Below, in pieces: positions 3,808-41,868 of a DNA stretch of 64,000 nt (positions within the stretch are counted from its first letter, which is position 1; every line of letters starts with the position of its first letter). The notes under the pieces are model-generated. The model made no database searches, was not told where the DNA came from, and saw only the letters and a list, made by a program, of their open reading frames with translations. Where the stretch lies: positions 1,929,156-1,993,155 of the forward strand of contig CP074573.1 in assembly GCA_018394295.1 (NCBI GenBank), given 5' to 3'. This DNA comes from Mycoplasmatota bacterium. Lineage in GTDB: Bacteria > Bacillota_I > Bacilli_A > Haloplasmatales > Haloplasmataceae. A program made the translations under genes and the position numbers.

Positions 3808-3913
3808 TATAATCACCTCATATATAAAATATCATATCATGTTATAAAATGTAAATCTTAATGAAAAAATAACTATAATTGTTTTTTCCCTTTTATACAA
3901 TTATAGATAATGA

Positions 3914-3919
3914 TATAAT
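3914..3919 (+). promoter_or_regulatory. Candidate -10 element of the leader transcript
   Basis: TATAAT lies in an AT-rich stretch about 30 bases before a short leader reading frame. No convincing -35 hexamer was found at normal spacing, so only the -10 is called. Confidence 0.4.
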
Positions 3920-3952
3920 ATAATTACTTACTAGTAGAGAGGGGCTGATGAA

Positions 3953-3985
3953 ATGATTAAATTACTAGGGTGGTTAGCTAATTAG
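3953..3985 (+). CDS. Leader peptide, 10 codons (MIKLLGWLAN)
   Basis: A short frame with its own ribosome site (AGAGGGG about nine bases upstream). Its last codons and stop lie in GTGGTTAGCTAA (3970-3981), which can pair with downstream TTAGCTTAACCAC. A ribosome translating or stalled on this frame would block that pairing and free a competing hairpin. It is too short for homology support, so coding status is inferred from the ribosome site and the overlap with the alternative stems. Confidence 0.4.
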   Translation: MIKLLGWLAN

Positions 3986-4015
3986 CTAATTAAAGTGGTT
4001 ATTTAGCTTAACCAC
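3970..4015 (+). promoter_or_regulatory. Attenuator-like alternative RNA stems
   Basis: Segment 1 GTGGTTAGCTAA (3970-3981, inside the leader frame) and segment 2 GTGGTTA (3995-4001) can each pair with segment 3 TTAGCTTAACCAC (4003-4015), but not together. Between them lies a 16-base palindrome made of two TTAGCTAA units. Mutually exclusive stems overlapping a leader peptide are the usual layout of a translational or transcriptional attenuator. Confidence 0.5.
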
Positions 4016-4034
4016 AATCAAGTTTCTTATTTAG

Positions 4035-4068
4035 CTCTAGTATTATCAATTAATTGATAATACTAGAG
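4035..4068 (+). promoter_or_regulatory. Perfect 34-base palindrome in the leader
   Basis: The arms start CTCTAGTATTATCAATT and are exactly complementary, giving up to 15 base pairs with a four-base loop. It is followed by TCTATTTACATTT, a poor U-run. It may be a weak attenuating terminator or a dyad operator; it lies between the leader peptide and the next ribosome site. Confidence 0.5.
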
Positions 4069-4101
4069 TCTATTTACATTTACTAGATAGGAGGTGAATT
4101 G

Positions 4102-4194
4102 ATGAAAACAGCAATTTTAGATAATACTCATTCTGATATCAAGGAGGTTTTCATCATTGTCATACAAAAATGGGGGAGATATTTTACCACCTAA
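4102..4194 (+). CDS. Small 30-residue reading frame overlapping the Mor-like gene
   Basis: It starts MKTAILDNTHSDIKEVF and ends with WGRYFTT. A good GGAGGTG site precedes the ATG at 4102. The frame covers the ribosome site (AAGGAGG, 4141-4147) and TTG start (4157) of the next gene and ends 38 bases inside it in another frame, so its translation should affect access to that start. I do not recognise the peptide. It may be a coupling frame or part of the leader control. Confidence 0.45.
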   Translation: MKTAILDNTHSDIKEVFIIVIQKWGRYFTT

Positions 4195-4441
4195 ATTATT
4201 ACGTGAATTACAAAAACATATTCAAGGTGAGTTAATTTACATCCCCAAAGAAAAAAATTCCAGAGCTGCTTGGGGTGAACATAGCGGTTCAAAAAAATTA
4301 ATGGATAATCGTAATTTAGACATCTTTAATTCTTATATACAAGGTGAAAGTATTAAAGATTTAGCATCAAAATTTTGTTTAAGTGAAGATAGTATTAAAA
4401 AGATTATTTCAAAAAACAAAAAGAAAATACATGAAAATTAA
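4157..4441 (+). CDS. Mor-like / CD3324-family small DNA-binding protein
   Basis: A 94-residue protein starting MSYKNGGDILPPKLLREL, with an IYIPK segment and a C-terminal helix-turn-helix (ESIKDLASKFCLSEDSIKKI, about 64-83). This is the pattern of the CD3324 family of small Bacillota proteins related to the Mor activator of phage Mu. It is probably a cytoplasmic transcription regulator; its targets are unknown. The TTG start is supported by AAGGAGG nine bases upstream. An elaborate leader (3914-4156) with two small frames and competing stems precedes it. A bidirectional terminator follows. Confidence 0.8.
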   Translation: MSYKNGGDILPPKLLRELQKHIQGELIYIPKEKNSRAAWGEHSGSKKLMDNRNLDIFNSYIQGESIKDLASKFCLSEDSIKKIISKNKKKIHEN

Positions 4442-4460: not shown

Positions 4461-4506
4461 AAAAAAGGAATATTTTCAATGGAGAATGTTCCTTTTCTAT
4501 TTTAAC
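4461..4506. terminator. Bidirectional terminator between convergent genes
   Basis: GGAATATTTTC and GAGAATGTTCC form an 11-bp stem with G-U pairs and the loop AATG. T-rich sequence follows on the plus strand, and the A-run on the other side serves the minus-strand P-loop gene. Confidence 0.7.
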
Positions 4507-16331: not shown

Positions 16332-16367
16332 AAAGAGGATGAACTAGTATGTCAGTTCATCCTCTTT
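16332..16367. terminator. Terminator hairpin next to the ruined MerR copy
   Basis: AAAGAGGATGAAC and GTTCATCCTCTTT form a 13-bp stem with a ten-base loop. It lies about 9 bases downstream of the remnant MerR stop position on the minus strand. Confidence 0.7.
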
Positions 16368-22007: not shown

Positions 22008-22029
22008 CTAAATTATAATAATAATATTT

Positions 22030-22063
22030 AAAACACCTGAAAATTTATAATTTCAGGTGTTTT
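22030..22063. terminator. Bidirectional terminator between the PUA-like and GDPD genes
   Basis: AAAACACCTGAAA and TTTCAGGTGTTTT form a 13-bp stem with an eight-base loop, T-rich on both outer sides. Confidence 0.88.
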
Positions 22064-22076
22064 AGTTATTTTTTAT

Positions 22077-41834: not shown

Positions 41835-41868
41835 AAAACACGCTATACAAAACGTATAGCGTGTTTTT
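41835..41868. terminator. Bidirectional terminator between the oxidoreductase and cysE
   Basis: AAAACACGCTATAC and GTATAGCGTGTTTT form a 14-bp stem with a five-base loop and T-runs on both sides. Confidence 0.92.

Follow-up and report, generated by a model that had tools for sequence, protein, structure and literature searches.

A putative uORF-controlled attenuator in front of a small Mor/CD3324-type regulator gene of a Mycoplasmatota bacterium

We describe a leader region that precedes the gene for a small DNA-binding regulator of the Mor/CD3324 type. Our results suggest, with a probability of roughly two in three, that this region is an attenuator controlled by an upstream open reading frame (uORF), for which a ribosome-targeting drug or another translation stress is the likely signal. 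The region lies in a 64-kb stretch of DNA (64,000 nucleotides; the window). As a preliminary description of the letters had proposed, a leader frame, a switch, a palindrome and an overlapping frame follow one another within ~250 bases 5' of the gene for a 94-residue regulator. Coordinates refer to the + strand of the window unless indicated otherwise.

Results

The regulator gene (4157-4441) encodes 94 amino acids from a TTG start codon, with a Shine-Dalgarno sequence (SD) at 4142-4148. Its product matches the NCBIfam family CD3324 (NF040785) over positions 1-82 of 82, with 108.6 bits against a cut-off of 65, and the Pfam family Mor (PF08765) with 34.9 bits against a gathering cut-off of 24.9. 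In a search of the PDB with a CD3324 profile (A3), the match to the Mor structure 1rr7 was weak (E 0.18); the top match, ranked above 1rr7, was 8vd6_A ('CAP repeat'), with an E value of 5.7e-10 over its full length and no individual stretch that passed. The gene is a single-gene unit with its own terminator (4463-4496, from a terminator scan) and is flanked by genes on the opposite strand. No CD3324 relative was found in the viral contigs or phages searched, and no publication about the CD3324 family came up in text searches of the literature library used. Elsewhere in the window, around 24732 (- strand), the region 5' of a gene for a 198-residue protein is well folded (z -3.6). By eye, the protein resembles an AbiEi-type antitoxin; the hairpin may be only the terminator of the preceding gene.

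Eight genomes of the same order were compared. The host, probably a Haloplasma-like bacterium, has a genome of 3.3 Mb, and its nearest named relative is Inordinaticella fortuita (L002). The leader-bearing gene occurs in four of the eight (G000, G007 with the same locus as L002, G006 with L004 and G003 with L005), and the leader peptides are MIKLLGWLAN, MIKLLGWLVK, MNKMLGWFLV and MINLLGWFTE, all of 10 codons with Gly-Trp at codons 6-7 and free variation at codons 9-10. In all three sister genomes with the regulator gene, the leader, the promoter element and the overlapping frame are kept, and so are the hairpins, in which compensatory changes occur. No related leader without the stems or frames, the observation that the preliminary description had named as contrary to its proposal, was seen in these genomes.

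A covariance model built from the four leaders was searched over 390 genomes. It recovered the leaders of the four CD3324 genes plus one more (L102), with no leader in the four genomes of the family that lack the regulator gene. Two further matches were judged to be due to chance: one, in G330, lies inside a ribonucleotide-reductase-like reading frame, and the other, in G012, is an AT-rich hairpin only. L102 (G003 C8:122177-122308; 51 bits, E 6.8e-6) lies at 1501-1632 of its locus (- strand), ahead of the gene for a GNAT acetyltransferase (reverse complement, 1696-2145). It encodes a 10-codon peptide, MTILKGWLTT*, carries the A:C stem described below, and has its own SD closed by AATCAAGTTTTTCTT. 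In an alignment of the five leaders, 93% of cells pair, and the covariation check that had been called for shows two-sided changes at 12 of 36 pairs; shuffles averaged 5.4 such pairs, and slid controls never exceeded 4. As the alignment was fitted to the covariance model, this count leans towards structure. The changes in the palindrome stem of L005 and L102 are, however, plain from the sequence itself. There was no Rfam match at the gathering threshold in the window or in 13 related loci; the best sub-threshold match, Plasmid_RNAIII (31.7 of 60 bits), is below the cut-off and was treated as chance. Comparison of the leader with plasmid sequences gave no convincing similarity.

The leader frame itself (ORF1, 3953-3985) encodes MIKLLGWLAN* over 10 codons, with GAGAGGGG upstream and an SD at 3937-3943, and Gly-Trp occupies codons 6-7 in all five leaders. 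All other elements of the preliminary description were likewise found in place, including two GTGGTTA segments (3970-3976 and 3995-4001) and their one partner, TTAACCAC (4008-4015). Folding defines a strand A inside ORF1 (GTGGTTAGCTAA, 3970-3981), a strand B that is the second GTGGTTA (3995-4001), a strand C (TTAGCTTAACCAC, 4003-4015) and an anti-SD segment (ATCAAGTTTCTT, 4017-4028) that pairs with the ORF1 SD when the leader is ribosome-free, a topology shared with L102. All five leaders keep the pairing of A with C, and compensatory changes are seen in it. The leader as a whole gave folding z values of -5.9 to -6.4, with none of 200 shuffles as stable, and its structure is therefore beyond chance.

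ORF1 is thus a translatable short leader ORF with an SD that is kept in relatives, as expected of a ribosome-mediated attenuator, and folding of the window leader with a blocked ribosome footprint gave alternative structures that depend on ribosome position. A:C formed at P ~1 if ORF1 was free (P ~1.0 without a ribosome) or if the ribosome stood at the start, and B:C formed instead when the footprint reached codon 4 or later. We propose that transcription starts just after position 3919 and that ribosomes translate ORF1. While ORF1 is free, A would pair with C and the ORF1 SD would be closed by 4017-4028; a ribosome held at codon 4 or later would free C, which would then pair with B where B exists. 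This predicted switch from A:C to B:C preserves the idea, put forward from the letters, that the two GTGGTTA segments compete. However, two of the five leaders (L004 and L102) lack B, which is present in the window, L002 and L005, and B:C is hence not essential. The competing stems alone were borderline in the window in a generic test, with 10 of 200 shuffles as good; only L040 and L042 were clearly above shuffles.

The conserved Gly-Trp codons raise the question of whether the leader could sense charged tRNA as an attenuator for Trp or Gly supply. Their presence at codons 6-7 of every leader is what such a sensor would predict, but there is a single Trp codon, and GGGTGGTT is under a second constraint, its pairing with AACCAC. 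Neither the regulator gene nor the GNAT gene serves amino acid synthesis, and the leaders of relatives have no Trp pattern yet adjoin drug-resistance genes. We therefore consider a sensor of Trp or Gly supply to be very improbable.

The palindrome noted earlier was confirmed as a perfect hairpin of 34 nt with 17-bp arms (hairpin T, 4035-4068). No other perfect hairpin in the window is as long; the next have 14-bp arms (16332-16367, 22029-22064 and 41835-41867). The U tail that follows it (4069-4081) is weak, and the hairpin was not among the + strand terminators reported by a scan of the window. In L102, GACCTTGCTACT...AGTAGCGAGGTC followed by TTTTTATTTTTT forms a canonical intrinsic terminator in the place of the palindrome. 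This suggests that hairpin T of the CD3324 leaders is most likely derived from, or acts as, a terminator, and we regard it as a probable attenuator terminator.

A perfect palindrome of 17-bp arms could also serve at the DNA level, as an operator bound by a dimeric regulator, with the short frames being incidental; Mor proteins bind dyads. The way in which the element has changed argues for an RNA stem: L005 retains the stem through G-U pairs and a double change from A-U to G-C, L004 has a stem of 7 bp, and in L102 an RNA stem still stands although its letters are different. The leader frame, moreover, is kept in all five leaders. An operator role for the palindrome is accordingly hard to credit.

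In thermodynamic folding, hairpin T formed at P ~1 as soon as its 3' arm had been transcribed, at all of the ribosome positions tested, and hairpin T and the S stem described below were kept in all ORF1 states; no antiterminator was found in this way. One candidate (3963-3970 with 4035-4042) is complementary by eye in all four species, but reached P ~0.01 or less in folding of truncated transcripts and was rejected. As hairpin T is thus predicted to fold wherever the ribosome stands, this model does not account for the logic of terminator and antiterminator. In our proposal, hairpin T would act as an early terminator, with read-through set by the behaviour of the ribosome on ORF1.

The preliminary description had also noted a 30-codon frame, and this second ORF (ORF2, 4102-4194; SD 4089-4095) does overlap, in a different reading frame, both the SD and the TTG of the regulator gene. 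It is open in the window, L002, L004 and L005, and ends in all four species at the same ACC-ACC-TAA/TAG. Its residues drift, and are not conserved even between the two closest species, while the frame stays open, which suggests that it is the open frame and its overlap that count, and not the peptide sequence. In an S stem (4100-4156), the ORF2 start (4100-4109) pairs with the spacer between the SD and the start codon of the regulator (4147-4156). This stem was predicted in all four species (accessibility of 0.00 for the ORF2 AUG and of 0.00-0.23 for the regulator spacer) and was opened in part when the ORF2 start was occupied. The folding predictions point to translational coupling: full-length mRNA would still be gated by the pairing of the ORF2 start with the regulator spacer, and translation of ORF2 would allow the regulator to be made.

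It is conceivable that control is purely translational, with ribosomes on ORF1 and ORF2 only opening the regulator start and hairpin T serving as a spacer or stabiliser in the absence of transcription attenuation. The S stem in all four species, the independence of hairpin T from ribosome position, its weak U tail in the window, and the ability of the SD region to pair in the wider family (in L044, TGGCTTT with GAAGCCG) are all consistent with this alternative. We judge it to be rather unlikely, as the homologous L102 leader has a canonical U-tailed terminator at the same place, and we favor transcription attenuation followed by a gated regulator start.

The promoter has an extended -10 (TGATATAAT, 3914-3919) without a good -35. 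Exactly 21 nt 5' of the -10 lies the element TTTTCCCTT (3884-3892; consensus CTTTCYCTT), a candidate operator that recurs with the same spacing in all five leaders; in L102 it reads CTTTCCCTT and stands 21 nt before TATAAT. Through this element, the regulator would probably also act at its own promoter. A longer promoter pattern, itself derived from the four CD3324 promoters, matched exactly at these four and nowhere else in the eight genomes. A regulon search with the promoter pattern gave counts that, in most genomes, were about those of a reversed-pattern control, and we claim no regulon. A one-mismatch copy of the element was seen 5' of a gene for a protein that resembles, by eye, the RidA family (L075, 1501-1535, - strand).

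The family at large, of which there was also a signal in laboratory Bacillus subtilis, shows a similar plan. An SD-preceded short leader ORF was present roughly 100-240 nt upstream of 20 of 22 CD3324 genes, whereas control genes at these loci had one in 4 of 21 cases; the 22 genes include close relatives and are hence not independent. Upstream regions of nearly all CD3324 genes had fold z values of -1.6 to -7 (control median, -0.2). In other orders and on plasmids the leader sequences are unrelated while the plan is similar, and many of the leaders have in common a ...HAK... peptide, the codons of which are able to pair with segments further on. One of the two leaderless genes (L006) takes second place in an operon, after a gene for an ANT(4')-like nucleotidyltransferase, and the other (L049) is degenerate. 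In L062 (46-1494, - strand), a CD3324 gene without a leader of its own lies directly 3' of an ANT(4')-like nucleotidyltransferase gene.

Some of the neighbors of CD3324 genes resemble resistance genes. A gene for a Vat-like streptogramin acetyltransferase (235-249 bits to the Vat model, under its cut-off of 300 bits) lies 3' of the CD3324 gene in L050, L051 and L055 and 5' of it in L053. Genes of the FusB/FusC family of EF-G-binding proteins follow the CD3324 gene in L042 and in L057-L060 (four loci of one genus); they score 64-124 bits with the FusD model, under the NCBIfam exception cut-offs, and Pfam EF-G-binding_N is above its cut-off for L057 and L059, while L058 and L060 were assigned by their near-identical sequence alone. 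A leader peptide is known for fusB in staphylococci (PMC12561750). No resistance gene adjoins the regulator in the window or in the other Haloplasma-like genomes. The neighbors of CD3324 genes hint at a family-wide link to ribosome-targeting drugs.

Discussion

The preliminary description suggested that the regulator is under ribosome-dependent control. Attenuation is well supported by the conserved length and Gly-Trp codons of ORF1, the covarying stems, the terminator of L102, the leader ORFs of the family and the resistance-gene neighbors, whereas the second GTGGTTA is not essential to the design and folding gave no antiterminator. A ribosome-targeting drug or other translation stress would be the likely signal read by ribosomes on ORF1. 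The window leader would thus represent a compact new attenuator that combines two short ORFs, a hairpin switch and a coupled start, and the presence of a homologous leader before a different gene means that its logic can be dissected with reporters. As the CD3324 family occurs in many Bacillota, with leader ORFs before most of the members examined and Vat-like or FusB-like genes beside several, a role as a translation-stress regulator is testable.

The kind of control is already known, and the leader itself is without an Rfam match at the gathering threshold. The protein resembles the Mor/C transcription activators of phage Mu in its Pfam Mor match and CD3324 membership, and the promoter resembles theirs in having no good -35 and a candidate element just upstream; it differs in that the protein is shorter and there is no phage context, and an activator role here is a prediction. 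The toiL uORF of Escherichia coli topAI is a single short uORF on which ribosomes stall in response to several drug classes, so that an occluded ribosome site becomes accessible (PMC12121999), but it works through Rho-dependent termination and its target is a toxin-antitoxin operon. In anatomy, the erm(B) leader is an analogue with two short ORFs in series, the second of which is also needed (PMC8274638); erm(B) encodes a methyltransferase, and the overlap of the second frame with the regulator start is a feature of the leader described here. The vmlR leader of Bacillus subtilis has a uORF in stem-loop 1, a terminator hairpin and then a hairpin over the SD of the gene (PMC9226507), and is an anatomical analogue in all three elements. 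Unlike the window leader, it controls an ABC-F resistance gene and has a tripeptide uORF; it also has a defined antiterminator, whereas none was found for the window leader. The nearest analogue in logic is the WblC/WhiB7 leader of actinobacteria, in which ribosome-mediated attenuation governs a DNA-binding regulator that responds to drugs aimed at the ribosome (PMC12421871); both the protein family and the leader are unrelated to those of the window. Tentatively, CD3324 proteins may be a Bacillota counterpart of WhiB7/WblC, that is, small Mor-type activators whose own mRNA would sense stalled ribosomes and which would activate their own promoter through CTTTCYCTT and switch on genes for ribosome protection or drug modification, for example vat, fusB and acetyltransferase genes.
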